59,562 bases of DNA from Oscillospiraceae bacterium (GTDB lineage: Bacteria; Bacillota; Clostridia; Oscillospirales; Oscillospiraceae): assembly GCA_017412765.1 (NCBI GenBank), contig JAFPWN010000036.1, positions 1 through 59,562 on the forward strand. The letters run 5' to 3'. Numbering within the stretch: the first letter of the stretch is position 1; every line of letters starts with the position of its first letter. Under the pieces are notes generated by a model. It was not told the DNA's origin. It saw only the letters and a program-made list of their open reading frames with translations, and did not search any database. Below are positions 39,576 to 59,268 of this stretch, one piece after another. The position numbers and the translations under genes were made by a program.

Positions 39576-39668
39576 GCGGAAGTACCCAAGAGGCCGAAGG
39601 GGCTCCCCTGCTAAGGGAGTAGGCGGTCTTAAAGCCGCGCGAGGGTTCAAATCCCTCCTTCCGCGCCA
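39576..39668 (+). tRNA. tRNA-Ser (GCU), integration target
   Basis: Acceptor GCGGAAG/CTTCCGC, anticodon GCT in CTGCTAA, long variable arm, T-arm GAGGGTTCAAATCCCTC, encoded GCCA end. Its 3' end, from the T loop onward, is duplicated at 59207-59229 and forms the attachment site of the element that starts here. The gene remains intact. Confidence 0.95.
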
Positions 39669-39707
39669 AAATCCTGCACTGAAAAGTGCAGGATTTTGCT
39701 ATATATG
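39646..39707 (+). repeat. attL (62-bp direct repeat)
   Basis: Starts in the T loop of tRNA-Ser(GCU) with TTCAAATCCC and runs through the tRNA 3' end and its downstream hairpin AAAATCCTGCACT/AGTGCAGGATTTT to ATATATG. It is identical to 59207-59268. The hairpin probably terminates the tRNA transcript. Confidence 0.95.
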
Positions 39708-39849: not shown

Positions 39850-41013
39850 TTATCTGCCGGAAACGTTACGAATAAACCGCTCCATTCGCTCCGCACTCTG
39901 CTTCCTCATTCGCTGCGAGACGTGGCCGTAAACGTCAAGGGTAAAGCTTGCGGTAGCATGGCCGAGATTTCCCTGAACGGTTTTTATATCGTCGCCGCTT
40001 TCGATGGATACGACGGCATAGCTATGCCGGAGATCGTGGAAGCGCTCTTCTGGAATTCCGATATCCGTTACAAGGCGCTTGAAGTACTTGTAAACCGTGA
40101 AATGACATAAATTACCGCCGAGCTCGTTTGTAAATACGAGATTCATCGGATTATTCCAAGCGCTGCTCGCTGCAATCATATTTTGATGCTGCTTGAACGA
40201 TTCCGCTTTTAGAGCCGCCATCACAGAATCAGCCACAGTTATCAGCCTTGAGCGGCCGGACTTCGTGCTGACAAGGGTGTAGGTGCCGCCGACCTTCTGG
40301 GTTTTCTGGAGCTGCTTATTGATATAGATGGTGTTATGCTCAAAATCGACACAGTCCCAGGTCAGACCGAGAACCTCCCCCTGACGCATTCCCGTAAAGA
40401 GGGTGACCATATACACGTTTTCAAAGCGGGTCCCTTTGATTACCTTGAGGAAGGCGGCGATGTCCTTTTCCTCCATAGGGTGAAATTCTTTGCGCCGTAC
40501 CTTCGGAAGAGTGCAAAGGTCTGATGGGTTGCTTTTGATCATCTCCATCTTCACTGCCTGCTCTAACGCGTGGTGAAAGATGCCGTGAATGTTTTTTACC
40601 GTTTTTGCGGATAGATCGTGCTCGGATTGCAGTGAGTTGTATAGCTGTTGAATCTGTATTGCGTGCAGCTGACCCAGCGCGATGTTGCCGAGTGTCGGCT
40701 TGATGTAGTGATCGCAGGCATTTTTGTACGAGGCAACAGTGTATGGCTTCAACACGGGTTCGATATACGTTTTCAGCCAAAGATCAAGCCATGCGCTGAT
40801 TTTCATTTTGCTCGGCTCAAGATAATTGCCCTCGTCAACCTGTACTGCGATTTCAGAAAGCTTTTGCCTTACCTCTTTTTGCGTTTTCCCATAGTAATAT
40901 TTTATTTTAGGCTTACCGGTTTTGGGATCAAAGCCGAGGGTGTATCGACCTTCCCAGCGCCCGTCAGGACGCTTTCTTATCATACCGGTGCCTTTTGGAG
41001 CTCTACCGGACAT
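39850..41013 (-). CDS. int: Tyrosine recombinase integrase
   Basis: A 387-residue integrase of the Tn916/phage type: an N-terminal AP2-like arm-binding domain (GRWEGRYTLGFDPKTGKPK), a core-binding SAM-like domain (about 65-160) and a catalytic domain with Arg in GMRQGEVLGL, HDLRHSYA, LGHATASF and the nucleophilic Tyr in LDVYGHVS. All catalytic residues are present. It would insert and, with the small excisionase-like protein, excise the element at the tRNA-Ser site. Confidence 0.95.
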   Translation of the reverse strand: MSGRAPKGTGMIRKRPDGRWEGRYTLGFDPKTGKPKIKYYYGKTQKEVRQKLSEIAVQVDEGNYLEPSKMKISAWLDLWLKTYIEPVLKPYTVASYKNACDHYIKPTLGNIALGQLHAIQIQQLYNSLQSEHDLSAKTVKNIHGIFHHALEQAVKMEMIKSNPSDLCTLPKVRRKEFHPMEEKDIAAFLKVIKGTRFENVYMVTLFTGMRQGEVLGLTWDCVDFEHNTIYINKQLQKTQKVGGTYTLVSTKSGRSRLITVADSVMAALKAESFKQHQNMIAASSAWNNPMNLVFTNELGGNLCHFTVYKYFKRLVTDIGIPEERFHDLRHSYAVVSIESGDDIKTVQGNLGHATASFTLDVYGHVSQRMRKQSAERMERFIRNVSGR

Positions 41014-41137: not shown

Positions 41138-41144
41138 ATTGTCT

Positions 41145-41518: not shown

Positions 41519-41540
41519 GTACATACGTACGAGCGTACGG
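41519..41540. repeat. GTAC triplet site, copy 1
   Basis: Three GTAC tetramers at exactly 8-bp spacing (41519, 41527, 41535), just downstream of the helicase/primase stop codon. Related to sites at 44500, 45392 and 45990. Confidence 0.7.
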
Positions 41541-43831: not shown

Positions 43832-43839
43832 CCAGCGCT

Positions 43840-43868
43840 TGACAGATTTCGTTGGAGCGTGATATATT
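43840..43868 (+). promoter_or_regulatory. Promoter of the rod RNA
   Basis: TTGACA (43840-43845), 17-bp spacer, TATATT (43863-43868), pointing opposite to the mobilisation genes. Confidence 0.6.
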
Positions 43869-43875
43869 ACCTATA

Positions 43876-43963
43876 GAGAAAGCGTATTCGGTATGCGGAG
43901 AGATGTTGGCTGTGCAGAATTATCTGTCATAGCCCTCCGGGAACCTACGCTCTCTCTTTTTTT
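43876..43963 (+). ncRNA. Candidate 88-nt rod-shaped RNA in the relaxase gap
   Basis: The predicted start coincides with the first base of an 11-bp stem (GAGAAAGCGTA 43876-43886 with TACGCTCTCTC 43946-43956). Inward follow CGGAG/CTCCG, GGCTGTG/CATAGCC and CAGA/TCTG helices separated by internal loops. Seven T residues follow the last paired base. The whole molecule is thus one elongated hairpin from start to terminator. It is antisense to the interval between mobC and the relaxase fragment. It may be an antisense regulator of the mobilisation or replication mRNA. No known RNA family recognised. Confidence 0.55.
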
Positions 43964-43977
43964 CACTATATTTTTCT

Positions 43978-44019
43978 CTAATGCCCATATTTAATTGGCC
44001 ATAATGCAGTTACCGCCAT
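43978..44019 (-). pseudogene. Relic of the relaxase N-terminus
   Basis: One base after the mobC stop, a 13-codon frame reads MAVTALWPIKYGH and stops. MAVT-LWPIK is a common beginning of relaxases that follow mobC, and GGAGG lies six bases upstream in the mobC end. This is most likely the true relaxase start, cut off by a deletion that joined it to unrelated sequence. Confidence 0.65.
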
Positions 44020-44020
44020 A

Positions 44021-44338
44021 TTACGCCTCCATAGAATAGGCTTCGACAATGAGCCGGGTTGCGTTTCTCAGCTCGTCAAGGTCCTTGCGTAAAAGCGGAG
44101 CGTCAATGAAGCCGGTGGAATTAGCACGTTTCTGCACCTCGTTCACGTTGGCTCCGATCCGCCGCAGCTCACGCAGCATACTCCGCACGTCGGCAGAAGG
44201 CGCTTCCTTGACTTCCGCTCCGTTCAATATGCGCCTGCAAAACTCCTCTCGGGATAGCTGTGTACGCTTCGCCTTTGCGGTAAGTGTACGCAGTTCCTCG
44301 CTAGTAAAGCGGATGATCATAGCTTTAGTTCTTTTCAA
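44021..44338 (-). CDS. mobC: MobC-family relaxosome protein
   Basis: A 105-residue protein with an N-terminal ribbon-helix-helix-like region (MIIRFTSEELRTLTAKAK) and the C-terminal MobC segment LRELRRIGANVNEVQKRAN. MobC helps the relaxase open DNA at oriT. It starts at TTG 44338 behind GGAGG. Its presence with a broken relaxase suggests a formerly mobilisable element. Confidence 0.88.
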   Translation of the reverse strand: MKRTKAMIIRFTSEELRTLTAKAKRTQLSREEFCRRILNGAEVKEAPSADVRSMLRELRRIGANVNEVQKRANSTGFIDAPLLRKDLDELRNATRLIVEAYSMEA

Positions 44339-44459
44339 AATATTCCTCCTTTCCTCGGGGTCATAGGGGCGGAAGCCCCTGCCAAGCGGTCAAGTGATAG
44401 CACTCGGCGTTGCTTGTCAAGATAGTAAAAAGTACGTCTTATGTGATAATGCTCACCTC

Positions 44460-44832
44460 CTTCTTCTGAACCATATTCAGATAAAATGTTCCGAGGATCG
44501 TACAGATGTACGCTTGTACGGAGGATTTGCAATTCCTTTTATATGTGCTATTTGTCCTCTCACCCCCCCCGCAAACTCGGGACTCATATGGTGCTCGGTT
44601 GCGATCCGATAACATAGGACTTTCACCTCCGCCGGGAACACCGCCGGCCGCCATCGCTTCGATGACGGAAGTATCATTATTCCCCCACACCTGTCATTGC
44701 CGCCACCGGTTGCTGTCCGGCTTTCGATGTCTAAGCTTGATCGCTCGCTTCCTTTCAGAAGGTCCTGGCGCGCCTACATCCACAGCTCGAGGTGCGGGTT
44801 TTTCCCATATGAGTGATATTCAATTTTCAAGG
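44460..44832. repeat. Long direct repeat, copy 1
   Basis: Begins near CTTCTTCTGAACCATATTC and ends near TTTTCAAGGTGC. It matches 45342-45727 over nearly its full length with scattered substitutions and small indels, including a shortened C run and extra bases before the GTAC site in copy 2. Confidence 0.85.
44500..44521. repeat. GTAC triplet site, copy 2
   Basis: GTACAGATGTACGCTTGTAC followed by GGAGGATTTGCAATTCC. The downstream part is a near palindrome. Confidence 0.7.
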
Positions 44833-45221
44833 TGCGTAGATCCCCTCAAGTGGTAGATCACGGGAAAGCCAAAAATATAAGGCTTCGGAGAAAAAACATT
44901 TCTATGGCATCAAAATTGATGCCACTCGACTAAAACCCGCTTTCGTCTTAGCTTTTTGGCGCCAAAACGGAGCCAACTCCCGGTGCTCTCTCGAATCTGG
45001 CGCCAAAACGGAGCCAATCTCTCACAAAATCTCCTCCCACACTCCTACCGCAACCTTCGAGCCTCCAAAACGACATTTATTTTCACAATTTCTTGAAACC
45101 ATTTTGGAGCGTCCTATTTGCCGGTAAAGGGGGCCTGTATCTGCTCGGCCTCTTCATTCCCTTACAGCAACATGAATGGTCAAAAGACGACATCTTATTT
45201 CTCTCTTTTTGAAAAACTTTC

Positions 45222-45339
45222 TCTACTCCTGTACCGCACGGTTTTGAGGCAAAAAGTAAACACCGGGCTGAAAATTTCCTTCTACTCCTGTACCGCAACA
45301 TCCAAAGCAAAATAGTAAACACGGCATCGAAACTTTTTC
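45222..45339. repeat. Tandem pair of about 60-bp units
   Basis: TCTACTCCTGTACCGCA occurs at 45222-45238 and 45281-45297, each followed 33 bases from its start by AGTAAACAC (45255, 45314) and ending in TTTCCT. The two units abut. This resembles iterons more than a CRISPR, since the spacers are themselves related. Confidence 0.65.
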
Positions 45340-45341
45340 CT

Positions 45342-45727
45342 CTTTCTTCTGAACCATATTCAGATAAAATGTTCCTGCAGATTACACCCACGTACAGATG
45401 TACGCTTGTACGGAGGATTTGCAATTTCTTTTATATATGCTATTTGTCCTCTCACGCCCCGCATACTCGGGACTCATATGGTGCTCGGTTGCGATCCGAT
45501 AACATAGGATTCTCACCTCCGCCGGGAACACCGCCGGCCGCCATCGCTCTGATGACGGAAGTATCATTATTCCCCCCACATCTGTCGTTGCCGCCACCGG
45601 TTGCTGTCCGGCTTGCGATGTCTAAGCTTTATCGCTCGCTTCCTTACGGAAGGTCTCGGCGCGCCTACATCCACAGCTCGAGGTGCGGGTTTTTCCCATA
45701 TGAGTGATATTCTATTTTCAAGGTGCT
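45342..45727. repeat. Long direct repeat, copy 2
   Basis: Second copy of the 44460-44832 block. The two copies are about 880 bp apart and could recombine to delete the intervening DNA. Confidence 0.85.
45392..45413. repeat. GTAC triplet site, copy 3
   Basis: Same GTACAGATGTACGCTTGTAC core as copy 2, followed by GGAGGATTTGCAATTTC. Confidence 0.7.
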
Positions 45728-45989
45728 TTTGAAACTCGAATGAGCTTCCACATACGACCCATCGAGAAGGTACAAAGTGTGACCGATTTTGCAAAACTTT
45801 TTCACTTTTGTAATTGTGCTCAAAATGAAGCGCGGATTTTTGTGCAATTTTTCTCGTTGATGAAATACCCCTCTATTAACTAGCCCGTGAGAAAGGCCAA
45901 AAACGGACAATTTTTTGAAACTTTTTAATTTTTGTAGAGAAGCACAATTTCGATCACCTTATTTTGTTCAGATTGCCGTCATCGGTACG

Positions 45990-46024
45990 GTACAGATGTA
46001 CGTATGTACGGGGGATTTGCAAAT
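45990..46024. repeat. GTAC triplet site, copy 4
   Basis: GTACAGATGTACGTATGTAC followed by GGGGGATTTGCAAATCC, whose GGATTTGCAAATCC is a perfect 14-bp palindrome. A fourth GTAC lies just upstream at 45985. This copy is outside the long direct repeat, so the site is conserved for itself. Confidence 0.7.
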
Positions 46025-46123
46025 CCTTATATATCTGTATTTCAGAAAGGTGCCCTCAACTTTCTTATCTTTTCTGCGACATAGATAATAAAAAATAAAG
46101 TGGCAAAAAACTTGCCACTTTTA

Positions 46124-46163
46124 GAAAAAATATGAGCTCTTTCCGTTTTTGCCGGAAAGGGCT
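46124..46163 (-). terminator. Terminator of the SLOG gene
   Basis: On the minus strand GAGCCCTTTCCGG/CGGAAAGAGCTC is followed by ATATTTTTTCT. A second hairpin, GTGGCAA/TTGCCAC (46101-46123), lies beyond. Confidence 0.75.
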
Positions 46164-46171
46164 CGATGTAT

Positions 46172-46642
46172 TTAGTTGGCAGTCAGTAGATTCAGATATT
46201 GTTTTCCGGTTTTCTTAGCGTATTGCATCGCCCTCCATGCGCCGCCATAGCTATGCGCTACATAGAATACGCAAAGATTTGATCGTTCGATCATGCTTTT
46301 ATTTCGTATGGTGATAGCATTCTTCGGATGGGAGTTTGCAGCGGCTTCACAAATTTCAATGCTGTCATAGTATCGCTCATATGCTTGCAGATTGTGTTCA
46401 ATTTCAGCCGATTTATATGGCAAAATGAGTGAGAGAGAGCAGTTGTCTGCGTCAAGACGTCGCTTAACGCGATGAAACGCAGAGGAAACGATCTGATCAT
46501 AATCGCCATCCTGTCCGACAAGAAAATCCACATATTCTCGCTCGCGGATAAGGCTTTCAATTACAGCTTCTGTTCGCTTGTCAGCAAGGTCAAAGTCCAC
46601 AATACTTCTGTGCCCGAAGAAGCTTACCGTGTAGATCTGCAA
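46172..46642 (-). CDS. SLOG-superfamily nucleotide-binding protein
   Basis: A 156-residue protein starting LQIYTVSFFGHRSIVDF, with FLVGQDGDYDQIVSSA and, near the C-terminus, VFYVAHSYGGAWRAMQYAKKTGK. These are the strand-loop motifs of the SLOG (DprA/LOG-like, DUF1273-type) Rossmann family, proposed to bind or process nucleotide ligands. TTG 46642 behind GGGAG is favoured because the upstream extension would overlap the operator and promoter. It is divergently transcribed from an XRE regulator, a typical arrangement on such elements; a signalling role is possible but unproven. Confidence 0.7.
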   Translation of the reverse strand: MQIYTVSFFGHRSIVDFDLADKRTEAVIESLIREREYVDFLVGQDGDYDQIVSSAFHRVKRRLDADNCSLSLILPYKSAEIEHNLQAYERYYDSIEICEAAANSHPKNAITIRNKSMIERSNLCVFYVAHSYGGAWRAMQYAKKTGKQYLNLLTAN

Positions 46643-46670
46643 AATAGTTCGCTCCCGTTTTGAAACACTA

Positions 46671-46690
46671 ATACCAACAATCGTTGGTAT
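46671..46690. promoter_or_regulatory. Operator-like palindrome
   Basis: ATACCAACAATCGTTGGTAT has perfect 8-bp arms around a 4-bp centre. It lies at the predicted transcription start of the SLOG gene and next to the XRE gene, so it is a likely binding site for that regulator. Confidence 0.6.
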
Positions 46691-46697
46691 ATAAATG

Positions 46698-46726
46698 ATT
46701 GTAATCATCCATAATGTCATTGTCAA
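46698..46726 (-). promoter_or_regulatory. Promoter of the SLOG gene
   Basis: Minus-strand TTGACA (46726-46721), 17-bp spacer, TACAAT (46703-46698). Confidence 0.75.
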
Positions 46727-46750
46727 GAACGAACATTTGTGGGTGATAAA

Positions 46751-46975
46751 ATGAGAGAAAAACTATCTGAACGTTTGAAGGAATGCAGAAAAGAGGCAGG
46801 TCTCACTCAGTGGGAGGTTGCCGTCTACTGCGACATAACTGAGAAGACATACCAGAATTACGAGCTTATGACGCGCGAGCCGAAGATTGAAATTCTCATG
46901 CGCATTGCGGACAAGTTCGGTGTGTCGATAGATTATCTCGTGGGCAGAACGAATGTTAAAGATGTGAATAGATAA
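46751..46975 (+). CDS. XRE-family transcriptional regulator
   Basis: A 74-residue Cro/CI-type helix-turn-helix protein: LSERLKECRKEAGLTQWEVA, then EKTYQNYELMTREPKIEILM, ending with FGVSIDYLVGRT. ATG 46751 is preferred to the GTG 12 bases upstream as it begins the HTH domain directly and has GGGTGAT in front. It probably controls the divergent SLOG gene and itself through the palindrome at 46671. Confidence 0.9.
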   Translation: MREKLSERLKECRKEAGLTQWEVAVYCDITEKTYQNYELMTREPKIEILMRIADKFGVSIDYLVGRTNVKDVNR

Positions 46976-47045
46976 GAAATTGCACAATGATTTATTAAGC
47001 CATCGCCTCGAACAGAGGAGATGGCTCAAGTCGTTTATCAGGAAA

Positions 47046-47100
47046 TTCTATTTCGCATTTTTAAAAATTCGTTGATTTTGCGAAATAGAAACTGTATAAT
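47046..47100 (+). promoter_or_regulatory. Inverted repeat and promoter of the DUF4143 ATPase gene
   Basis: TTCTATTTCGCA (47046-47057) and TGCGAAATAGAA (47079-47090) form a 12-bp perfect inverted repeat with a 21-bp spacer. TTGATT (47072-47077), 17 bp and TATAAT (47095-47100) make a promoter overlapped by the right arm, so binding of a protein here would block transcription. An almost identical 35-bp core lies outside the element at 59285-59319. Confidence 0.65.
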
Positions 47101-47119
47101 AGATGCGAGGTGATATGCT

Positions 47120-48313
47120 ATGAGGCTTATCGAGCGAGATTTCTATCTGAATGAGCTGAAAGAAGTGATGGGGACTCCGGATATTAAGGTGATTACCGGT
47201 GTACGACGCAGCGGAAAGTCCAAGCTGATGGAATCTTTTATTGACTATGTTCGCCGGAATGATCCGTCTGCTAACATCATCCATATTAATTTCAATCTGA
47301 ACGAAAATGAAGGCTTAATGGAGTATCATGCGCTGAATGCTTATATTCAGGATGCCTATATTCCGGGGAAGAACAATTTTGTTTTTATTGACGAGGTTCA
47401 GATGTGCACGGGCTTTGAAAGAGCTATTAACAGCCTTCACGCCACTGAGAAATATGATATTTATATCACCGGCTCAAATGCTTTTCTCATGAGCAGCGAT
47501 CTTGCTACGCTCTTTGTTGGGCGCACCTTTGAGATCGAAGTTTTCCCTTTCTCATTTAAGGAGTTTATGCAGTATTACGAGCTAAGCGATCAATACTCTG
47601 CTTTCAAACAATATATTCAAGAGGGCGGTATGTCCGGATCGTATCTTTACAAGACGCCAGAATCAAAATATGACTATATTGCCGATGTGTTTAATACTCT
47701 TATAGTCCGCGATATTCAGCAAAAATATAAGCTTCGCAATAAGTCGTTGATGGAGCGGCTTTGCGATTTTCTGATTGATAATATTTCAAATCAGACTTCC
47801 ACGCGAAGTGTTGCGGCAGCCTTCACAAGCGAACAAGTGAAAACAAACGACCGCACGATCAGCACATATATCAAGTATCTCTGCAACGCGTTTGCGTTCT
47901 ATAAGGTGAGACGATATGATATTCAGGGCAAACGTTATCTTGCCTCAAATGATAAGTATTATCTATGCGACCACTCTTTCAAATATGCTAAGCTCGGTAC
48001 AAAAAACGCCGACTATGGCAGAATGATTGAAAATATCGTTGCTATTGAGCTTCTTCGCAGAGGCTATGAGCTGTATGCCGGAGTTCTATATAAAAAGGAA
48101 ATCGATTTTGTGGCAATTAAGCGCGGCGAAAAGACATATATACAGGTTGCAAACAGTATTGATGGCCCTGATACGTTTGAACGTGAGGTTGATCCTCTGC
48201 TGAAAATTAAGGATGCATATCCTAAGATGATACTCGCACGCACAAGACAGGAAGCGTATCAGTATGAAGGCGTTCAAATTGTGGACGTTGCTGATTGGCT
48301 GGCTATGAATTAA
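47120..48313 (+). CDS. AAA ATPase with DUF4143 domain
   Basis: A 397-residue protein with P-loop TGVRRSGKSKLM near residue 27, Walker B FVFIDEVQ and sensor YITGSNAFL, then a DUF4143 winged-helix region and a C-terminal PD-(D/E)XK-like fold (EIDFVAIKRGEKTYIQV). Such ATPases are common in Clostridia and Bacteroidetes, occur next to mobile DNA, and have no proven role. It lies 15 bases before hsdR and could be the first gene of the defence operon, placing the island under the inverted-repeat promoter. Confidence 0.85.
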   Translation: MRLIERDFYLNELKEVMGTPDIKVITGVRRSGKSKLMESFIDYVRRNDPSANIIHINFNLNENEGLMEYHALNAYIQDAYIPGKNNFVFIDEVQMCTGFERAINSLHATEKYDIYITGSNAFLMSSDLATLFVGRTFEIEVFPFSFKEFMQYYELSDQYSAFKQYIQEGGMSGSYLYKTPESKYDYIADVFNTLIVRDIQQKYKLRNKSLMERLCDFLIDNISNQTSTRSVAAAFTSEQVKTNDRTISTYIKYLCNAFAFYKVRRYDIQGKRYLASNDKYYLCDHSFKYAKLGTKNADYGRMIENIVAIELLRRGYELYAGVLYKKEIDFVAIKRGEKTYIQVANSIDGPDTFEREVDPLLKIKDAYPKMILARTRQEAYQYEGVQIVDVADWLAMN

Positions 48314-48328
48314 TACCGAGGTGGTAGT

Positions 48329-50863
48329 ATGAAAGCGAAAGAAGCTAAAGCTCGCATAAAGATCAATAAGTTGCTCGAGGCCGCTGGGTGGCGGTTCTTT
48401 GATGATAAGTATGGTCCTGCAAATATTCAGGTGGAGGCCAATGTCAAAATCACGAAGAAGCAATTTGATGACTTTGGAGAAAATTTTGAAAAAGTGAAGA
48501 ATGGGTTTATTGATTTCCTACTTCTTGATGAGCAGGGAAAGCCTTTTATTGTCCTCGAAGCGAAATCCGAGGATAAAGATCCCCTTGTTGGCAAAGAACA
48601 GGCACGAGCATATGCCAAAAGCAATTTCGTGAAGTATGTGATTCTGTCCAACGGAAATATTCATTACTTCTGGAATATCTACAAAGGGAATCCTCAGATT
48701 ATTCTTTCTTTTCCGACATATGAAAGCGTTCGGGAAAGTAAGGCTTTGAATGCTGACCCTTCCAGACTTTACAACGAAGAGATTACGCCGGATTATATTG
48801 CTGTAGTTCGTGAACCCCGTTATGCAGAGGCACCAGAATACAAAAATCCAGATACACGGGCGCAGTATCTAAAAGACCGTGGTTTACGGATGATGCGTAA
48901 ATATCAGGTCAACGCAATCAAAGCTCTCCAGCAATCTGTGAGAGAAGGAAATCAACGCTTTCTCTTTGAAATGGCAACAGGAACTGGAAAAACGCTTACT
49001 TCCGCAGCGGTTATTCGCTTATTCTTGCGAAGCGGTAACGCCAATCGTGTTCTCTTCTTGGTTGATAGAATTGAGCTTGAAAACCAAGCAAAGAAGAACT
49101 TTATCAATTACCTTAAGCCCGATTACGAAACCGTCATCTTCAAAGAACACACCGAGGATTGGCGCAAAGCTGATATTGTTGTTTCCACGGTTCAGACACT
49201 TGCATATAACAACAAATACAAAACTGTGTTCAAGCCTACGGATTTTTCGCTGATTATTGCAGACGAAAGCCATCGTTCAATTAGCGGAAACAGCCGTGCT
49301 GTATTTGAGTACTTTATTGGATATAAACTTGGCCTGACTGCTACACCGAAGGACTATCTTAAAAACGTAGATGCTGATGATCTGGCGGCAAACGATCCTC
49401 GCGCTTGGGAGCGTAGGCAACTGCTTGATACATATCGCACGTTCGGCTGCGAGAGCGGAGAACCTACTTTCCGGTATTCATTGATTGACGGAGTAAATGA
49501 TCCCGATGGACCTTACCTTGTGAACCCCACTGTTGTCGACGCCAGGACGGATATTACAACACAACTCCTTGCTGATAAGGGATACGCCGTTTTGCGCTCC
49601 GGAGACGAGCAGGACGAAGATGAAGAGGAAACCTTCTTCGCACGTGACTTTGAAAAGAAGTTTTTCTCTGACGAGACGAACAAGGTATTTGTCAAAACCT
49701 TTATGGACAATGCTCTGCGTGATCCGATTACAGGAGAGATCGGCAAAGGAATTGTATTTTGTGTCAGCCGGAAGCATGCCGCGAAAATCACGCAATTGCT
49801 GAACATTTACGCGGATAAGATGTTCCCGGATATGTACTACTCAGATTTTGCCATGCAAATCACATCCGACGTTCAGAACGCTCAGGAATATACGATAAAC
49901 TTCCAGAACAATAATCTGAGTGGAACGACCAAGTTCCTCGAAGGATACCGCTCTTCCAAAACTCGTATCTGTGTGACCGTTGGTATGATGACCACAGGGT
50001 ATGACTGTGAAGATCTGCTGAATATCGGGCTGTTTCGTCCCATATTCTCCCCGACGGATTTCATTCAGATCAAAGGCCGAGGCACCAGAACCTTCACGTT
50101 TACTTATAAGACCAAAGCCAACGGCGTTGACGAAATCCATGAAGCGCCGAAAGACACCTTTAAGCTTTTTGATTTCTTCGGAAACTGCGAGTACTTTGAG
50201 GAGAAGTTTGATTACGATGAGGTCATCAAGCTGCCGAAACCTGCTTCTCAAAGCTCTGGTCTTGGCGGCGGCGTAACGGTGACCACCTTTGAAAACTTCG
50301 ATCCCGATCCTCTGAAAACGATGACGGAAACAAAAATCGGATTACAGGGCATGAAAATCGACCGCATGTTCTTCCAGAAGTTTGAGGATGAGGTCAAGCA
50401 AGACGAAACTGCCCGCGCACATTATGAGCATGGTAATTACGCTGCCGCCCAACGGTATATCGAGGAAACATATCTCGACAAACCCACCGAACACTTCACC
50501 TGGGACAAGCTCAGGCGTGCTACCGGCGTGGATCGCCGCGTGACTGTCCGGGAAATGTTGGATAAGATATTTGGCGCAATACCGTCCTTCAAGAGTAAGA
50601 AGGAGCTGGTCAGTGACGAGTTTGACGGCTACCTTCTGACCTGCGGCGTCCCGGCGGGAGATTACCACGAAATACGGCGCTTCTTTGAGACGTACCTGAC
50701 TGACAAGGATGTACGTCGAGCCATTGAGGATAAGAAGTTCCAGCTTCTCGGAACGCAGATCCCAAGCTATACATTTTCCGATTTAAAACGGTTAGGAGTC
50801 GCCAATATGAACAGCGTCATCGGCTACGTCAATGACAATGTCAATCTATCCAGATTTATGTGA
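48329..50863 (+). CDS. hsdR: Type I restriction endonuclease subunit R
   Basis: An 844-residue motor/nuclease subunit. The N-terminal nuclease has Asp62 (FIDFLLLD) and Glu77-x-Lys79 (VLEAK). The helicase has Walker A MATGTGKT (215-222), the DESHR box and the C-terminal motif QIKGRGTRTF. The C-terminal helical region contacts the methylase. It is shorter than EcoKI HsdR and resembles EcoEI/KpnAI-type R proteins. GGTGG precedes ATG 48329; nine bases separate it from the methylase-specificity gene. Confidence 0.93.
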   Translation: MKAKEAKARIKINKLLEAAGWRFFDDKYGPANIQVEANVKITKKQFDDFGENFEKVKNGFIDFLLLDEQGKPFIVLEAKSEDKDPLVGKEQARAYAKSNFVKYVILSNGNIHYFWNIYKGNPQIILSFPTYESVRESKALNADPSRLYNEEITPDYIAVVREPRYAEAPEYKNPDTRAQYLKDRGLRMMRKYQVNAIKALQQSVREGNQRFLFEMATGTGKTLTSAAVIRLFLRSGNANRVLFLVDRIELENQAKKNFINYLKPDYETVIFKEHTEDWRKADIVVSTVQTLAYNNKYKTVFKPTDFSLIIADESHRSISGNSRAVFEYFIGYKLGLTATPKDYLKNVDADDLAANDPRAWERRQLLDTYRTFGCESGEPTFRYSLIDGVNDPDGPYLVNPTVVDARTDITTQLLADKGYAVLRSGDEQDEDEEETFFARDFEKKFFSDETNKVFVKTFMDNALRDPITGEIGKGIVFCVSRKHAAKITQLLNIYADKMFPDMYYSDFAMQITSDVQNAQEYTINFQNNNLSGTTKFLEGYRSSKTRICVTVGMMTTGYDCEDLLNIGLFRPIFSPTDFIQIKGRGTRTFTFTYKTKANGVDEIHEAPKDTFKLFDFFGNCEYFEEKFDYDEVIKLPKPASQSSGLGGGVTVTTFENFDPDPLKTMTETKIGLQGMKIDRMFFQKFEDEVKQDETARAHYEHGNYAAAQRYIEETYLDKPTEHFTWDKLRRATGVDRRVTVREMLDKIFGAIPSFKSKKELVSDEFDGYLLTCGVPAGDYHEIRRFFETYLTDKDVRRAIEDKKFQLLGTQIPSYTFSDLKRLGVANMNSVIGYVNDNVNLSRFM

Positions 50864-50872
50864 GGAATCGCT

Positions 50873-53365
50873 ATGCTGAACTTTGATGTAAAACGGAAAA
50901 TCAATACCCTGCGGGATATCCTTGTCGGTAAGGTTCCCGATCCCAAGGCGCAGGTAGAGCAGATCACCATTGCGCTGATCTACAAGTTTATGGACGATAT
51001 AGACCAGCAAAGCGCAGATTTCGGAGGAAGCCGGGAGTTTTTCAAGGACGAATATGAGAAGTATGCGTTCACGCAAATCATGCTGCCGGAGCACAGCGCC
51101 CAAGATAGGCTGAATTTGTACGCAGAAGGCATCGAAAAGATGACCAACAATCCCGATCTGCCCAAACTGTTCCGGGATATTCTGCGCAATGCCTATATCC
51201 CTTACCGTGACCCGGAGACGCTAAACCGCTTCTTAAAGGAAATTGCGGAATTCTCCTACGAGGACAGTGAAGAACTGGGTAATGCCTTTGAATACCTGCT
51301 TTCCATCATGGGCAGCCAGGGCGACGCAGGCCAGTTCCGTACACCCCGCCATATCATTGATATGATGGTGGAGATCACGGCCCCGGCCAAGAACGAGACG
51401 ATTCTTGATCCGGCCTGCGGCACGGCGGGCTTCCTCATCAGCGCTTACAATTACATCAAAAAGACCAATCTGGACGAGCAAGGTAAATCCACGCTGGTTG
51501 CGGATGACATGACCCGGATGACCAAAAATTTTGCAGGCTATGACATTTCTCCGGACATGGTACGGCTTTCCCGTGTCAACATGTATCTGCACGGCTTTAC
51601 GTCGCCGAATATCAGCGAATATGACACGCTGACCAGCTTGGAGAAATGGACTGACAACTACGATGTCATTTTCTCCAATCCACCGTTTATGACGCCAAAG
51701 GGCGGCATCACCCCACACAGCCGTTATCGGGTCTCTGCAAAGCGTGCGGAGGTTCTGTTTGTGGACTATATTGCAGAGCATCTTGAATCTAAGGGGCGTG
51801 CGGCAATTATTGTCCCCGAGGGAATTGTGTTTCAATCTCAATTCGCATATAAAACCCTACGAAAATATCTTATTGATGAATGGGGTTTATATGGTGTAAT
51901 CTCCCTTCCCGCCGGTGTGTTCAACCCATACAGCGGCGTTAAGACCAGCATACTATTAATTGATAAGACGCTGGCCAAGGAGCGGGACAGCATTCTCTTT
52001 GTGAAGCTGAATAATGATGGCTTTGATCTCGGTGCACAGCGCCGGGAAATCAAGGGCAGCGAGATCCCGGATGTGATCAACATTTTCAAAGAATATCAAA
52101 CGGGCGTAGATGTTACCGGGCGGGAGAATGTTGTTCTTGCGAAAAAGAGTGAGATTGCTGAACAAGATTATATTCTGGTGGGAGAACGATATGCTAAAAC
52201 TATTGAACGTAGCGGAGCCTTCCCACTTGTTAGTTTAGGGGACACAAACATATTCAGAATTGAATCCGGTGGAACTCCTGATACAAAAAATGCCGATTAT
52301 TGGGATGGAAACATCTGTTGGGCGACTTTGATTGACCTACCCGCCGATAATACGATTACATATCTTTACGATACCGAAAGACATATTACCGAAGCTGGGC
52401 TTTATGGTTCTTCCGCAAAGCTATTGCCAGCGGACAGTATCCTCGTTTCTTCTCGTGCCACAATTGGCAGAATTGCAATTACACGATGCGAGACCGCAAC
52501 AAATCAGGGTTTTAAGAATATCATAATAACCGACAAATCGCGTGCGCTTACAAAATACGTGGCATATATGCTGACTAAGTTGGTGCCCAAGATGGTCGCC
52601 CTATCTGCTGGAGGTACTTTTAAGGAAATCTCTAAAACTAATTTATCAACGCTTCAAATGCCCCTCCCTCCGCTGACCGTACAGGAAGAAATCGTTGCCG
52701 AGATCGAAAGCTATCAGAAGATCATCGACGGCGCCCGTCAAGTCGTGGAAAACTACAAGCCGGTGATCAAGATTGACCCGGCGTGGGAGATAAAACCACT
52801 TCAGGAATTATGCGAAGTCATCACGAAAGGTACCACACCAACTACATACGGATTTGATTTTATAGATGATGGCATCAATTTTGTTAAAATAGAGTCCATT
52901 TCTGCTTCTGGTAAGATTGAAAAAGAACGGTTGGCTTGTATCTCAGAAGAATGTAATGCTGCTCTTCGGAGAAGCCAATTAGAGAAAAACGATATTCTAT
53001 TTTCCATAGCGGGATCGATGGGAACTGCCACAATAGTTGAAGAAGATATATTACCGGCTAATACAAATCAAGCATTAAGTATCATTCGATTGATTGATAA
53101 AAGCTATGTGCCGTATGTATTTCAATACTTGAGAAGTTCAGCTATCTTTAATGAAATCGAAAGGATAAAAGTCGGTGTCGCTCAGTTCAATTTATCATTG
53201 AAGCAAGTCGGAGAATTCCGTATTCCGATTCCACCAAAAGATAAGTGTGCCGATATTGTTTCTGCGATAAATGAAGAATTACAAATTATCGAGCAAAACA
53301 AACGTCTTATTGAAATTTTCCAGCAGAAGATCAAAGACAAGATTGCCGAGGTCTGGGGGGATTAA
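50873..53365 (+). CDS. Fused type I methyltransferase-specificity protein (HsdM-HsdS)
   Basis: An 830-residue fusion. Residues 1-440 are an N6-adenine methyltransferase with an N-terminal helical domain, SAM motif I DPACGTAGF (179-187) and catalytic NPPF (269-272). From about 445 it continues as an HsdS subunit with two target recognition domains (starting LVSLGDTNIFRIESGGTPDT and IKPLQELCEVITKGTTPT), separated by a conserved coiled coil (QEEIVAEIESYQKIIDGARQ). In most systems M and S are separate polypeptides. The fusion dictates 1:1 stoichiometry and suggests an M1S1-type complex. Confidence 0.92.
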   Translation: MLNFDVKRKINTLRDILVGKVPDPKAQVEQITIALIYKFMDDIDQQSADFGGSREFFKDEYEKYAFTQIMLPEHSAQDRLNLYAEGIEKMTNNPDLPKLFRDILRNAYIPYRDPETLNRFLKEIAEFSYEDSEELGNAFEYLLSIMGSQGDAGQFRTPRHIIDMMVEITAPAKNETILDPACGTAGFLISAYNYIKKTNLDEQGKSTLVADDMTRMTKNFAGYDISPDMVRLSRVNMYLHGFTSPNISEYDTLTSLEKWTDNYDVIFSNPPFMTPKGGITPHSRYRVSAKRAEVLFVDYIAEHLESKGRAAIIVPEGIVFQSQFAYKTLRKYLIDEWGLYGVISLPAGVFNPYSGVKTSILLIDKTLAKERDSILFVKLNNDGFDLGAQRREIKGSEIPDVINIFKEYQTGVDVTGRENVVLAKKSEIAEQDYILVGERYAKTIERSGAFPLVSLGDTNIFRIESGGTPDTKNADYWDGNICWATLIDLPADNTITYLYDTERHITEAGLYGSSAKLLPADSILVSSRATIGRIAITRCETATNQGFKNIIITDKSRALTKYVAYMLTKLVPKMVALSAGGTFKEISKTNLSTLQMPLPPLTVQEEIVAEIESYQKIIDGARQVVENYKPVIKIDPAWEIKPLQELCEVITKGTTPTTYGFDFIDDGINFVKIESISASGKIEKERLACISEECNAALRRSQLEKNDILFSIAGSMGTATIVEEDILPANTNQALSIIRLIDKSYVPYVFQYLRSSAIFNEIERIKVGVAQFNLSLKQVGEFRIPIPPKDKCADIVSAINEELQIIEQNKRLIEIFQQKIKDKIAEVWGD

Positions 53366-53368
53366 TTG

Positions 53369-54373
53369 ATGAACAATGAAAGAATCAAGGAATGTACAGG
53401 GTTATCGTCAGATATTCTAAAAAATTTTGAATTATCTGAAATACCTGTTAGCAACATCATTTTAAAATGCTTACGGCTTTGTCGATTGCTTGGTGATGAA
53501 GACGGGGTTTTGCTTTTCACATATGAATCTTCCGGATATCCAAACGAGCCAGATGGCATGTCACCTGATTCTTGGAGAATATCTAAGATAGCAGGAAGAA
53601 GATACTTTTCAAAAGAAAAAGATAAATCCGGTAAAGAAAAAAACATTGAATATGCAAAACTTACCTTAATAGCGGAAATGGAAGAACTAATTGCTTCGCA
53701 GAAAATTCGCTTATCTTCTTCACAAGATCCTAATGTTTCTTTATCATCGGCCAACCCAAATCAAATGGTATTTGCTCCGCAAGGCAACGCCGACGAAAGA
53801 AATAGGATAGTATCATCTATTAGAGAGTCGCAAAAATGGATTCAAATAATAACAGGATGTTTATATAATTACATATTGAAAATATACAACAAACTATCTT
53901 ATGGTAACATTATTGAAGATACTTTTACTAAATCCCGTTTATTGACAAATGATAAATTGGCTACCATGTGTCCTCAATCAATCAGCAAATTTGTTTCAGT
54001 ATATGAAAATATGGATTCGGACAATCCGGAAGATTGGGCAAATGCAGTCCATTCATGCCGCCGCATTCTTGTTGATTTAGCTGATGTATTATACCCACCT
54101 CGAGATGAGCCGATTGAGATAGGTGGAAAGCCGATTAAAGTTGGGCAGGAACAATATATTAATAGGCTTGTACAGTTTATTGCAAGCAAAACCGGAAGCG
54201 AGACATATCGGGATGTAGTGGGAGCGGATCTGTCCAACATCGGTAAACGCCTTGATGCAATCAATGATGCCGTATGTAAAGGCACTCATACAGAGATTTC
54301 AAAAGATGAAGCGTCAAGATACATTATTCATACCTATTTGCTTATTAGCGATATTGTTGCACTGATTGATTGA
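53369..54373 (+). CDS. AbiTii-domain-like abortive infection protein
   Basis: A 334-residue protein following the methylase gene after three bases. The N-terminal 80 residues (VSNIILKCLRLCRLLGDEDG, then a short GYPN segment) resemble the AbiTii domain found in phage-defence proteins. The remainder is helical, with a central region PQSISKFVSVYEN and a C-terminal DLSNIGKRLDAINDAVCKGTHTE that looks like an interaction domain. No catalytic motif is evident. The location inside a restriction-modification operon supports a defence role. It overlaps the next open frame by eight bases, though the true start there is 54387. Confidence 0.6.
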   Translation: MNNERIKECTGLSSDILKNFELSEIPVSNIILKCLRLCRLLGDEDGVLLFTYESSGYPNEPDGMSPDSWRISKIAGRRYFSKEKDKSGKEKNIEYAKLTLIAEMEELIASQKIRLSSSQDPNVSLSSANPNQMVFAPQGNADERNRIVSSIRESQKWIQIITGCLYNYILKIYNKLSYGNIIEDTFTKSRLLTNDKLATMCPQSISKFVSVYENMDSDNPEDWANAVHSCRRILVDLADVLYPPRDEPIEIGGKPIKVGQEQYINRLVQFIASKTGSETYRDVVGADLSNIGKRLDAINDAVCKGTHTEISKDEASRYIIHTYLLISDIVALID

Positions 54374-54386
54374 GAGGGTTGTTTAT

Positions 54387-55571
54387 ATGCCCGAAGAAGT
54401 AAAAAAGCCGATTATATTCGATATTGGCAAAATTTCAAAGGCTGTATCAAAAGCCTTTGAAGCAGAACATCCAGAGTTTGCGATTTCCGATCCTCCGGAC
54501 GAACTGTTCAAAATGCTTGAATACCTGCCGGAAGAGTTTGCGGACGAAACCGAAGAGAAGTACATAGAGGCTCTTATTTTGGCCGCTCAGACCAGTTACG
54601 AGAACGGGCTGTATCAGTTCGCTTATGTGCAATATCACATGCTGTTTATGACAGCGGTGTATTATGCGATTTTGAAGGTATCGGTCCTTCATGAGGAAGA
54701 ACTGAAGAAGGCTCTCTACTACTTGCTGAAAGATCGGTATGCTGATTTCTGGAAAGAAACAAACACCAAGAACGGAAAGCTCTATTTCGGTAGCTTTGCT
54801 GTAATCAGCGAAAGCGATGTATTTATGCTTCTGAGGGTGGTTGGCCTTGATAATAATCTGTTGGGTGAGCTGCAAAAGCTGGTGCAGGAGCGAAACAAGT
54901 ACGCCCATGCCAACGGCCAGCTGCAGCTTACATCTGACGAACTTTTCATGGAGGCATTGAATAGCTACAACGCTAAAATCCAACGGGTTGTTGATCTTCT
55001 GAAAAATGATCTGATTGTGTTTTACAAAAAGACGATCAGTGAACCGGATTTTTATGATCCTGAAATCCGGGCATATCTTGACCCAGATGAGCAGATCATC
55101 CAAGAATTCATCAAAGAGTACTCTCTTTCAAGAACAGAACTGAACTGGCTGCGCAAAATTCGGATGTCCGACTTTGACGGTTGTGGGGGAGATGATGAAA
55201 TCAAAACGCTGCATGGCGCTTTGATTCATTACTATCGAGAACTCACGCAAGATGAATATCAGCCTTTCGATGATCCGTTTGTACTGTACAAGTACAAGAA
55301 CAACGCAGCGGAATTCGTAGAAAGAGAGCTGGAAATCAGCGCCTATGAATGTGGTAAAGAAGGCGGAGAGTTCCCCGTGTATGAGTGTCCAGAATGCGGC
55401 GAAGAACAGCTAGTTCATGATGCGGAAAAAGGAACTTATCATTGCTTTGCCTGTGATAAGAACTATACAGATGAAGATTTGACCTTCTGTGAAAAATGTG
55501 GAAGCCTCATGCAGCGAAACGAAGATGTCCCCATCTGCCAGAACTGCATCGAGAATATGGAAAAAGAGTAA
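54387..55571 (+). CDS. HEPN-like protein with C-terminal zinc ribbons
   Basis: A 394-residue protein of no recognised family. Residues about 55-215 are helical and contain ERNKYAHANG, an R-x4-H arrangement (Arg169, His174) as in HEPN ribonucleases. The last 60 residues hold two zinc ribbons (CPEC...CFAC and CEKC...CQNC). Such a layout could couple RNA cleavage to nucleic-acid or protein sensing. ATG 54387 is preceded by GAGAGGG. It lies between the AbiTii-like gene and the Argonaute gene in one direction. Function is inference from the motif and context. Confidence 0.55.
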   Translation: MPEEVKKPIIFDIGKISKAVSKAFEAEHPEFAISDPPDELFKMLEYLPEEFADETEEKYIEALILAAQTSYENGLYQFAYVQYHMLFMTAVYYAILKVSVLHEEELKKALYYLLKDRYADFWKETNTKNGKLYFGSFAVISESDVFMLLRVVGLDNNLLGELQKLVQERNKYAHANGQLQLTSDELFMEALNSYNAKIQRVVDLLKNDLIVFYKKTISEPDFYDPEIRAYLDPDEQIIQEFIKEYSLSRTELNWLRKIRMSDFDGCGGDDEIKTLHGALIHYYRELTQDEYQPFDDPFVLYKYKNNAAEFVERELEISAYECGKEGGEFPVYECPECGEEQLVHDAEKGTYHCFACDKNYTDEDLTFCEKCGSLMQRNEDVPICQNCIENMEKE

Positions 55572-55600
55572 AGAAATAGTCAGAAACTATAGGAGGACTT

Positions 55601-58600
55601 ATGCTAACACAAGAGCAATTTATTCGCAACTTTAGTGTGATGGCCGACGGAGAAGTTGACTTCTTTCTCGGTGCAGGTGCCTCCTTGGCCTCAGGTATTC
55701 CTACTGGCGGTGACTTGATTTGGGAATTTAAGCGTACCCTGTACTGTTCTGAATGCGACATATCTACAGAGAAATATAAAGATTTGGCTCTTCCCTCTAC
55801 CCGGAAAATGTTGCAAGAATATTTTGACAAAAAAGGAGGCTACCCGGCACAATATGCACCGGAGGAATACTCATTTTATTTTGAACAGTGCTATAGCGAT
55901 CCGTTAGCCAGAAAACGGTTTATTGAGAGTATCGTTTCTGACCGGGAGCCATCTATTGGTTATCTGTGCATGGCAGAAGCTGTGGCGCAAGGAAAGGTAA
56001 AGAATGTTTGGACGACAAACTTTGATCCTTTGCTCGAGAATGCGCTTCACCGTCTCTATCCGATGAACAATGTTCTGGTGTGCAGCGAAGTAAACCGTGA
56101 TAGCGTTCGTTTGCTTAACCCGCAGTATCCAGTGATCGGAAAGCTACACGGCGATTATCGTTATGATTGGCTGAGAAATACAGAGAGTGAATTACAGCAG
56201 ATAGAGGAGAAACTCAAAGAGTATGCATCAAGTCAGCTGGTGGACAAGCAGCTGGTGGTGATCGGTTACTCAGGTAATGATGAATCTATTATGTCTTTTC
56301 TCGAGAGCTGTATTGATGATCCGGTTTTGCTGACCAAGGGAATACTTTGGACAATTCGGAGAGAGAGTCGGGTTAATCCGAGAGTAAATAAGCTAATCGA
56401 AAGAGCACGGAAAAACGGAAAATCTGCCGATATTATGGAGATAGACGGATTCGACAAGCTGATGTTTTCCATTTATAAGATTCAGAATTATCACAACGAG
56501 ATCATCGATGGACAAGGACGTATGCTGCGTGAAAGGAGCGACATTCGCTTTTCTGGTCAGCCGGTTGATTCTTTTATAAAACTGAATGCATATAGAGCTG
56601 AAGGCTGCCCGCTCTGCAATGTGTTTGAGACCGATATTACAAGCTGGAATGAACTTCGTACAATTATTGCAGATCGAGATATACTGGCGGCCCTGTATAA
56701 CAAGCACATATATGCCTTTTCCTCCAAAGAAAAGCTCGAGACAGTATTTCAAAAGCACATATTATCTCAGATAACGAGAGAAGAGGTTCCGGATAGAATC
56801 ATAAACAAATATAACTCTATATATATCTGGCTGATATATCAATTAATCATACGAACATTCATCTCAAAGGGCATGTCTTCCTTTGCAAAGAACAAGGTGT
56901 ATAATCCCGACTCTCGCAGAGACGACAAAGGTTATCAAGTCTTTGATGCTGTGGAGATAGCTGTTAGCTTTATAGATGGAACACTATACTTAAATCTCTT
57001 GCCAACAGTCCATGTGCGCAACGCCAAAGGTGATCGCTTGGATAGAGAAATATACCAGAGCCAAGTTAATCGTATTGTATCGAGCATATATAATCAGCAA
57101 TACAATGAGAAGCTTAGATTCTGGGAGACACTACTGCTATCTTCTGGTAAGCTTCGATTTGAAAATGATGGCTTTTCAGTTTCTTTTATTGCCCCCGCAA
57201 TCAGCATAGGCGGCGATAAAAGAAATCCCAAATGGATGACTTTGCCATCTTGTAAATATGACGAGCCGATGATGTGTTTTTCTGATACAGACAAGTCAAA
57301 GCAGACGGTGAATCAACTCAAAGGGCTATGCCAATATGGACCAATCGATTGCTCATACATGAGAAGTGGTGCTACTCGCCCATCTGTACGGCTCGCAGTT
57401 CTTTCACCAGATCGTGACATGGATAAAATTCTGGCACACCTGAACAGGCTCAATACCCATGTACAAAACAGTGGAAGAGACAACTTCCTGCCTCATTATG
57501 AAGGGTTTGAACGTGTTTATCGGCGTTCCCTTTCTGTTCCAACGAAGGAGCAGAAAGACATCTGTATCGGCTACAATGCAAATACAGTACTAAAGATGAC
57601 ACCAGAGAAGTTCCTGGCATTTATGAAACGAGGGATTGAGCATTTTTCGCTACTTGATTCAGATTTTGATATCCTTGTTATTTACATCCCAAAGAGCTTT
57701 GCAGCTTTTCGTACTGCTTCAGTCATTTCTGCTGATTTTAACCTTCACGACGCACTAAAGCTTTATGCGACAGAAAAAGGGATTAAACTTCAGCTGATAG
57801 AAGAGAAATCCGTAAATAGCTATGATCCTTGCAAAGTGATGTGGGGATTATCTACAAGCTTGTATGCTAAAGCCACTGGTATTCTATGGCACCCGGAAAC
57901 GATTCGAGATGATACGGCATATGTTGGCATAAGCTATGCTTTTTCAGAGGAAAAACGAATTTGTATTGGTTGCAGTCAACTCTTCGATTCTACTGGAACC
58001 GGTATTAGGATGGTGCTGAGAAAAATCAATAATCCTATATTTCATGGCAGAAGTAATCCTTATATGCGTGAAGACGATGCCCGCTCTATGATGACTGAGT
58101 TACGTGAACAATACAATCGTTCAGCGCCTGTAAACAATCTTAAGAGGGTTGTGATCCATAAAACCACACCATTCATTCAGGAAGAAATCACTGGTATTAT
58201 GCAAGCCTTTAGTGGTATCGAAGTTGAACTGGTTCAAATACAAGATTATTGTTCATGGCGTGGAATTCGATTTGGCTCAATCCCGGGAAAAACTGCATTT
58301 GGGTATCCTGTAAAAAGAGGAATGGCTGTAAAGCTGGATCAAAACAGTTTCCTTCTTTGGACACATGGTTCTGTGATTCATCCCGAACTCTCAGGCACAA
58401 ATAATTATTTCAAAGGCTCACGAGGTATCCCTGCACCTCTGCTTGTAAGACGCTTTGCTGGAAAAACAAGTGGTGATACGTTGGCCAAGGAAATACTTAT
58501 GCTCACAAAAATGAATTGGAACAGCGGCGATAGCCTATATAAAACACTTCCCGTTACGTTGGACTTCGCTAAAGTATTAGCACGGATGTCAAAACAGGAA

Positions 58601-58645
58601 GAGGCAATATTTGATAAAGCATATGATTTTAGATTTTTTATGTAA
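55601..58645 (+). CDS. Single-chain SIR2-APAZ-MID-PIWI prokaryotic Argonaute
   Basis: A 1014-residue protein. Residues 1-290 form a SIR2 domain with the NAD loop FFLGAGAS (21-28), TTNFD (138-142), catalytic-type His183 in KLHGD and GYSGND (222-227). Residues about 300-640 fit an APAZ region. The MID domain (about 650-745, with LVIYIPKSF) leads into PIWI (about 746-1014), with GLSTSLYAKATGILW, AYVGISYAF and RVVIHKTTPF. The first catalytic Asp of active PIWI domains is replaced in VGISY, so it should not slice. Known short Argonaute-SIR2 systems use guide-directed target binding to trigger NAD+ depletion; here both parts are one polypeptide. AGGAGG precedes the ATG. Confidence 0.9.
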   Translation: MLTQEQFIRNFSVMADGEVDFFLGAGASLASGIPTGGDLIWEFKRTLYCSECDISTEKYKDLALPSTRKMLQEYFDKKGGYPAQYAPEEYSFYFEQCYSDPLARKRFIESIVSDREPSIGYLCMAEAVAQGKVKNVWTTNFDPLLENALHRLYPMNNVLVCSEVNRDSVRLLNPQYPVIGKLHGDYRYDWLRNTESELQQIEEKLKEYASSQLVDKQLVVIGYSGNDESIMSFLESCIDDPVLLTKGILWTIRRESRVNPRVNKLIERARKNGKSADIMEIDGFDKLMFSIYKIQNYHNEIIDGQGRMLRERSDIRFSGQPVDSFIKLNAYRAEGCPLCNVFETDITSWNELRTIIADRDILAALYNKHIYAFSSKEKLETVFQKHILSQITREEVPDRIINKYNSIYIWLIYQLIIRTFISKGMSSFAKNKVYNPDSRRDDKGYQVFDAVEIAVSFIDGTLYLNLLPTVHVRNAKGDRLDREIYQSQVNRIVSSIYNQQYNEKLRFWETLLLSSGKLRFENDGFSVSFIAPAISIGGDKRNPKWMTLPSCKYDEPMMCFSDTDKSKQTVNQLKGLCQYGPIDCSYMRSGATRPSVRLAVLSPDRDMDKILAHLNRLNTHVQNSGRDNFLPHYEGFERVYRRSLSVPTKEQKDICIGYNANTVLKMTPEKFLAFMKRGIEHFSLLDSDFDILVIYIPKSFAAFRTASVISADFNLHDALKLYATEKGIKLQLIEEKSVNSYDPCKVMWGLSTSLYAKATGILWHPETIRDDTAYVGISYAFSEEKRICIGCSQLFDSTGTGIRMVLRKINNPIFHGRSNPYMREDDARSMMTELREQYNRSAPVNNLKRVVIHKTTPFIQEEITGIMQAFSGIEVELVQIQDYCSWRGIRFGSIPGKTAFGYPVKRGMAVKLDQNSFLLWTHGSVIHPELSGTNNYFKGSRGIPAPLLVRRFAGKTSGDTLAKEILMLTKMNWNSGDSLYKTLPVTLDFAKVLARMSKQEEAIFDKAYDFRFFM

Positions 58646-58653
58646 TATTAGCA

Positions 58654-58679
58654 GCGAGACTACTATTTAGTAGTCTCGC
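58654..58679 (+). terminator. Hairpin after the Argonaute gene
   Basis: A 12-bp stem (GCGAGACTACTA with TAGTAGTCTCGC) with a two-base centre, but without a T run on either strand. It may stabilise the mRNA end or terminate weakly. Confidence 0.45.
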
Positions 58680-58692
58680 AGTGGGAACATTA

Positions 58693-59040
58693 TTATTGGC
58701 TAATTAGCTCGGTATAAACAACTTTTTCTACGGTCTCCCGTATCTCGTTCATCGCGCCAATCCATGCGAGCTGATCCTTCGCCTTCAGCTCCTCGGTCAC
58801 GCCATCGCGGGCGGCATACTCTTTTATCAGCCGGTCAAACATTTCGTTTGCCTGCCTGTCAACATCTTCGAGGTGCGCGTTGAGTTTACCGGTGAGAAAC
58901 AGACCGGTGTAGATCGGATTCTTATATTTTCGCAGATATTCCCTTCTGCGGTAGCCCCAGATGTCGATTTTAGGACTCTCCGGAGCTATGAGATCGGGGA
59001 GATAGTAGTCGCCGGAACGGTGATATGAGATATTATTCAT
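58693..59040 (-). CDS. TnpV-family transposon protein
   Basis: A 115-residue protein with the TnpV features: YHRSGDYYLPDL near the start, WGYRRREYLRKYKNPIYTGL and a long C-terminal helical region. TnpV-type proteins occur in clostridial transposons and mobilisable elements of the Tn4451/5397 kind; their function is unknown. It is the last gene of the element, facing away from attR. Confidence 0.8.
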   Translation of the reverse strand: MNNISYHRSGDYYLPDLIAPESPKIDIWGYRRREYLRKYKNPIYTGLFLTGKLNAHLEDVDRQANEMFDRLIKEYAARDGVTEELKAKDQLAWIGAMNEIRETVEKVVYTELISQ

Positions 59041-59206
59041 GTCAGAATGCCTCCTTATTTTGCATCAGATATTGACCACTTAACTGACCATGTAAATGAA
59101 GAAAATGTGTGGAAACATTGAATTGACAGGTACAAAAAAGTACTGATATTAGACAAAAATAATCATTTTAGGCCATAAAAAGTTTGAAATAGTTGCCATA
59201 TTTCAA
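59041..59206. other. Right terminal segment of the element
   Basis: AT-rich non-coding sequence between TnpV and attR, without a supportable gene. It probably holds integrase arm-binding sites; no clear repeat of them was seen. Confidence 0.4.
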
Positions 59207-59268
59207 TTCAAATCCCTCCTTCCGCGCCAAAATCCTGCACTGAAAAGTGCAGGATTTTGCTATATATG
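59207..59268 (+). repeat. attR (62-bp direct repeat)
   Basis: Identical to 39646-39707. It begins with the tRNA-Ser T-loop sequence TTCAAATCCC, here not preceded by the rest of a tRNA. Confidence 0.95.

Follow-up and report, generated by a model that had tools for sequence, protein, structure and literature searches.

Background

Short prokaryotic Argonaute (pAgo) systems such as SPARTA, SPARDA and SPARHA associate MID-PIWI and APAZ domains with a coupled effector, an arrangement likewise encountered in the protein described here. The latter, 1014 amino acids (aa) long, is encoded at positions 55601..58645 (+) of a 59,562-nucleotide contig from an Oscillospiraceae bacterium (JAFPWN010000036.1, assembly GCA_017412765.1); this whole stretch is referred to below as the window. 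The closest solved fold is that of GsSPARSA from Geobacter sulfurreducens (subclade S1B; PDB entries 8in8, 8jkz, 8k87, 8y7z and 8y80), which has its domains, its SIR2 dyad and its MID histidine in common with the window protein. GsSPARSA is, however, encoded by two genes and forms a heterodimer, whereas the window protein is one chain with the join near residue 540-543. The initial annotation was fair in regarding two-gene systems as the better studied form: two SPARSA structure papers (PMC10474274, PMC10781750) use GsSPARSA. According to these papers, the guide-RNA-bound complex, once it meets a matching single-stranded DNA, switches on the SIR2 NADase.

Fused members are not new. As stated in PMC10810196, NAD(P)ase-APAZ effectors are at times fused with the pAgo into a single protein. 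Subclades S1A (fusions) and S1B (operons) are cited in PMC12205087, and the S1A fusions correspond to group Ia in the APAZ classification by Ryazansky et al. 2018 (PMC6299218). Among the matches listed in our literature searches no title centred on a fused member, the class itself being described. A fused protein from Paraburkholderia was reportedly tested by Zaremba et al. in 2022. The architecture is thus already known, and the window protein is a new, well-preserved and otherwise ordinary member of the S1A class, with the same one-chain domain order, the same length and the same PIWI domain devoid of its first Asp as the fusions described by PADLOC model PDLC02420. No feature distinguishing it from this class was found, a cysteine pair discussed below being a local variant. 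By its domains and by analogy with GsSPARSA, it is very probably a fused SPARSA, i.e. a guide-RNA holder, a target-DNA sensor and a killer enzyme in one. It leaves the general picture of short Argonautes unchanged, and adds to it a well-preserved S1A example located on a bounded island.

Domain architecture of the fused protein

The open reading frame (ORF) is complete and separated from the preceding gene by 29 nt; it has a Shine-Dalgarno motif, AGGAGG, whose last base lies 4 nt upstream of the ATG. Model PDLC02420, a SIR2-APAZ-Ago fusion of 1010 positions, matched residues 1-1014 through its positions 3-1010 with 1441.8 bits, and the Pfam family SIR2_2 was recognised at residues 135-254. In phmmer comparisons with solved structures, the GsSPARSA Sir2 chain matched residues 2-311 (E 3.1e-45) and the Ago chain residues 554-1014 (E 2.8e-66). 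Likewise, structural comparison placed the two GsSPARSA chains on either side of residue 540-543, the alignment of the predicted model with 8y80_E spanning residues 2-539. SIR2, APAZ, MID and PIWI thus all occur in one polypeptide, which is a single-chain SIR2-APAZ-Argonaute, as the initial annotation had proposed, with a PIWI domain predicted from its sequence to be catalytically inactive.

The SIR2 NADase domain, with an intact N140/H183 dyad, covers residues ~1-295 (55601..56485, +; upper boundary approximate). It is followed by a linker and APAZ region at residues ~296-542 (56486..57226, +), delimited by the structural alignment and by a profile match to the GsSPARSA SIR2-APAZ chain extending to profile position 434. 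The MID domain, including invariant H716 and Q731, occupies residues ~543-745 (57227..57835, +; inner boundary approximate), and the PIWI domain residues ~746-1014 (57836..58645, +), with a VGISY strand lacking Asp and an invariant C-terminal Met. An APAZ-type region had been announced at residues 290-650; APAZ is indeed present, but these limits were wrong, as MID begins near residue 543. The PIWI similarity suspected for residues 746-1014 turned out to be clear.

Residue conservation

One scan of genome contigs recovered 37 related loci, 24 of which had more than 1300 bases ahead of the match. The window protein and the 20 loci with a full-length ORF formed an alignment of 21 rows, extended to 25 rows (A1) by three ORFs truncated at contig ends plus one locus from a viral contig. 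Unless stated otherwise, residue counts refer to the 25 rows, of which 22 cover the SIR2 part and three are gapped there.

N140, H183 and Y90, equivalent to Gs Sir2 N142, H186 and Y89 (numbering taken from PMC10781750), were invariant in all 22 covering rows. In the MID-PIWI part, H716 (equivalent to Gs His166), Q731 and K757 were invariant (25/25) and common to Gs, K720 was Lys in 24 rows and the C-terminal residue was Met in every row. This set of Lys and Gln residues presumably binds the guide 5'-phosphate together with the C-terminus. As for Gs His166, it stacks on guide base 1 according to PMC10474274. The disruption of the first PIWI catalytic Asp, previously noticed in the VGISY strand, proved general: Asp occurred in none of the 25 rows at columns 774-779, where this residue is expected.

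A different outcome was obtained for the CPLC pair at residues 336-339 (56606..56617, +), which had been singled out as a notable feature. Among the 21 full-length proteins, window included, C336 was found in 4, C339 in 14 and both in 3. A zinc site at this position was rejected because both cysteines occurred together so rarely, and no function is proposed for them.

Phylogeny and distribution

The main tree was built from 37 MID-PIWI rows (25 fused proteins, four two-gene SIR2-APAZ/Ago systems and eight other short pAgos as root); it includes locus L035 and omits L042, which had an end branch of 2.84 in a 36-row tree. The 25 fused proteins formed one clade (support 96/91), beside which the four two-gene systems formed another (99/95), with the eight root pAgos outside. 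A comparison with short pAgo clades had been suggested earlier, and the window protein indeed grouped beside SPARSA, within Argonautes, in agreement with the S1A and S1B subclades. In the 36-row tree, 24 fused rows held together at 94/88. The fused pair L039/L075 sat on a long branch flagged by the program, the L075 match starting, at its locus, only after model position 67; the remaining 23 fused rows held at 100/99. Locus L076 consists of a 473-aa Argonaute with a 486-aa protein upstream. A single origin of the fusion cannot be concluded from this clade, because the fused rows were picked for their resemblance to the window or to PADLOC models of fusions, and proteobacterial fusions were absent from the sample.

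Titles among the 37 loci include Clostridia, Gastranaerophilales, Bacteroidales and Treponema, the nearest named relatives belonging to Clostridia. L034 and L035 are separate Ago genes restricted to MID-PIWI, with 24-25% identity. As judged from model matches, the full fused architecture is sparse within the order of the window: PDLC02420 matched 15 of 394 genomes, the full model being found only in G000 and G173, while 12 of the other 13 matched its SIR2 part and one, G151, its MID-PIWI part. G151, of the same genus as the window, harbours at L042 a 444-aa short pAgo with a very long branch and an integrase-like ORF beside it. Since the ORF upstream of this Argonaute matches PADLOC TIR-APAZ models, G151 appears to have a SPARTA-like pair instead. 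At the phylum level, model PDLC02384 matched 7 of 398 genomes, but a single frame covered the greater part of it only in G000 and G757. Matches were also recorded in 121 of 72,556 plasmid records and in 4 of 50,697 phage records, none of the latter with a single place covering 80%. A single related locus, L074, came from viral contigs; two serine recombinases lie upstream of it.

Several relatives were degraded. C-terminal-only remnants of fused Argonautes, away from contig ends, were found at L033:8001-8444, L037:8001-8201 (~90 bases behind hsdR) and L038:8001-8276. L005:8004-11042 displays an in-frame stop at codon 737, leaving ORFs of 736 and 257 codons.

Proposed mode of action

The sequence and the model show the domain order, an intact SIR2 dyad, conserved MID residues, a PIWI domain lacking its first Asp, a match to the SPARSA fold and purifying selection (see below), whereas guide RNA, DNA target, NADase trigger and abortive infection are carried over from GsSPARSA. 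By this analogy, the MID pocket would hold a 5'-phosphorylated small RNA, with which invading single-stranded DNA would pair in the PIWI-APAZ channel. The target would remain uncleaved, no cleavage being expected from a PIWI domain without its catalytic Asp. Pairing should then release the N-terminal SIR2 domain, which would hydrolyse NAD+, so that the infected or plasmid-bearing cell would stop growing and the population would be protected.

Several observations weigh against such a direct transfer. The proposed activity is drawn from sequence and analogy, and the nearest solved relative is only ~30% identical in Ago. S740 occupies the position of Gs Ago Arg190, the residue that displaces guide base 2 in Gs; of the 25 rows, none has Arg in this column and one has Lys. 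K745 does not vary among these rows but faces an Asn in Gs, so guide recognition may differ from that of Gs. In the SIR2 domain, R187 corresponds to Gs Sir2 R190, which contributes with Y89 to NADase activity; yet only 13 of the 22 covering rows have Arg at this position, the other 9 having Leu. Superposition of the predicted model on the whole SIR2-APAZ chain 8y80_E gave a root mean square deviation of 13.4 A over 511 residues; the model agrees with SIR2-APAZ chains domain by domain only, which makes its placement of SIR2 unreliable. Accounts of the assembly state of active SPARSA differ: PMC10474274 describes activation as heterodimeric, without higher-order assembly, whereas the later PDB entry 8y80 is a tetramer and tetramerisation is cited in PMC12205087. 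A single chain of 1014 aa would be convenient for testing the effect of fusion on SPARSA activation, because subunit assembly is no longer a variable.

The upstream gene

Directly upstream lies a gene (54366..55571, +) for a 401-aa protein that is weakly HEPN-like and carries a C-terminal, cysteine-rich, zinc-ribbon-like region. This gene and the SIR2-Ago could form a two-effector system combining NADase and RNase, or the former could gate the latter. The two lie side by side in the window as well as at L006, and at L023 the final 30 codons of the former remain ahead of the Argonaute. Moreover, the motif RNKYAH (residues 176-181) fits a HEPN RNase signature. The HEPN Pfam match remained below its cut-off, though (17.1 versus 28.4 bits), as did the zinc-ribbon match, and the structure prediction was unusable (predicted local distance difference test score, pLDDT, of 41.7). 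Linkage was limited to L006, with the scar at L023, in the set of 37 loci, 24 of them with room upstream. At L056 (genome G053), a copy of the gene with 89% identity precedes a HamA protein instead. Homology between L056 and the window stops at 55490 and that with L023 (L023:6280) starts at 55485, a near-common breakpoint (55485-55490) that leaves ~80-85 nt of the upstream gene beyond it. Although two loci are few, this shared breakpoint, followed by HamA in one case and Ago in the other, is evidence against a fixed partnership. We therefore consider a two-effector or gating arrangement unlikely and, since linkage was not conserved, the upstream gene was ruled out as an obligate partner.

It is likewise improbable that this gene represents an exchangeable adaptor or sensor of the restriction operon, serving whichever effector lies downstream (SIR2-Ago in the window and L006, HamA in G053) and exchanging its last 25-30 residues together with that effector. 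The literature search returned no papers combining HEPN, zinc ribbon and type I restriction.

Integrity of the gene and nature of the SIR2 domain

The broken or C-terminal-only copies at L005, L033, L037 and L038, all inside contigs, could suggest that the window gene is itself decaying or inactive and retained by chance on a mobile island. Yet this copy is full length, with its Shine-Dalgarno motif, and the SIR2 and MID residues compared above are intact. Whole-gene ratios of nonsynonymous to synonymous substitutions (dN/dS, Nei-Gojobori) were 0.070, 0.066 and 0.064 against the close relatives L002, L006 and L023, respectively, with large dS values (1.2-1.7) that were saturated in the APAZ region for L006 and L023. 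The SIR2-Ago gene is intact and maintained under purifying selection, which leaves decay highly improbable. Equally hard to credit is a SIR2 domain with a deacylase or signalling role in place of cell-killing NADase activity: the Pfam name SIR2_2 leaves the chemistry undecided by itself, but the solved relatives matched by this part of the fused SPARSA are called NADases (GsSPARSA in its papers, ThsA, and KomC, some entries of which read deacetylase) and the NCBIfam deacylase model NF001753 reached 10.4 bits for a cut-off of 243.

Probable genomic island and gene context

The gene is probably mobile cargo of an integrated island, alongside a type I restriction system and AbiTii. A 62-bp exact direct repeat of the 3' end of tRNA-Ser(GCT) was found in two copies 19,561 bp apart (39646..39707 and 59207..59268, both +), which are probable attachment (att) sites. 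The guanine-plus-cytosine content is 44.4% in 39669-59206 versus 56.3% in bases 1-39640. The island's tyrosine integrase lies at 39850..41013 (-). The type I restriction system (48329..53365, +) is composed of an HsdR-like gene (48329-50863) and a fused HsdM-HsdS gene (50873-53365), and is followed in the same gene run by an AbiTii family protein (53366..54373, +). The HsdM-HsdS fusion is one 830-aa protein displaying N6_Mtase and two Methylase_S stretches. Further island genes code for a DUF5906 protein, an AAA_14 ATPase, TnpV, an AlpA/HTH protein and a NikA-like mobilisation protein; no relaxase was found among the ORFs scanned. On these sequence features, 39646-59268 looks like an integrative mobilisable element carrying defence cargo. 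An empty integration site was not found, the right flank matching relatives partially and at several places. An Rfam scan of 39000-59562 at gathering thresholds yielded only two tRNAs and two pemK RNAs; the latter, cis-regulatory matches at 44612-44680 and 45502-45570 (-), lie ~890 bp apart inside the island.

Type I restriction genes were also surveyed with phmmer at 40 loci, with the hsd genes of the window, L016 and L037 as queries; many of the contigs were too short to be informative. A match upstream of the Argonaute or its remnant was recorded at eight (L006, L010, L016, L021, L023, L030, L037 and L039), the hsd families being confirmed at L016 and L037, while L004 displayed a ResIII helicase, a family not confined to type I systems. 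A serine recombinase was present within the fetched DNA at 8 of the 40 loci.
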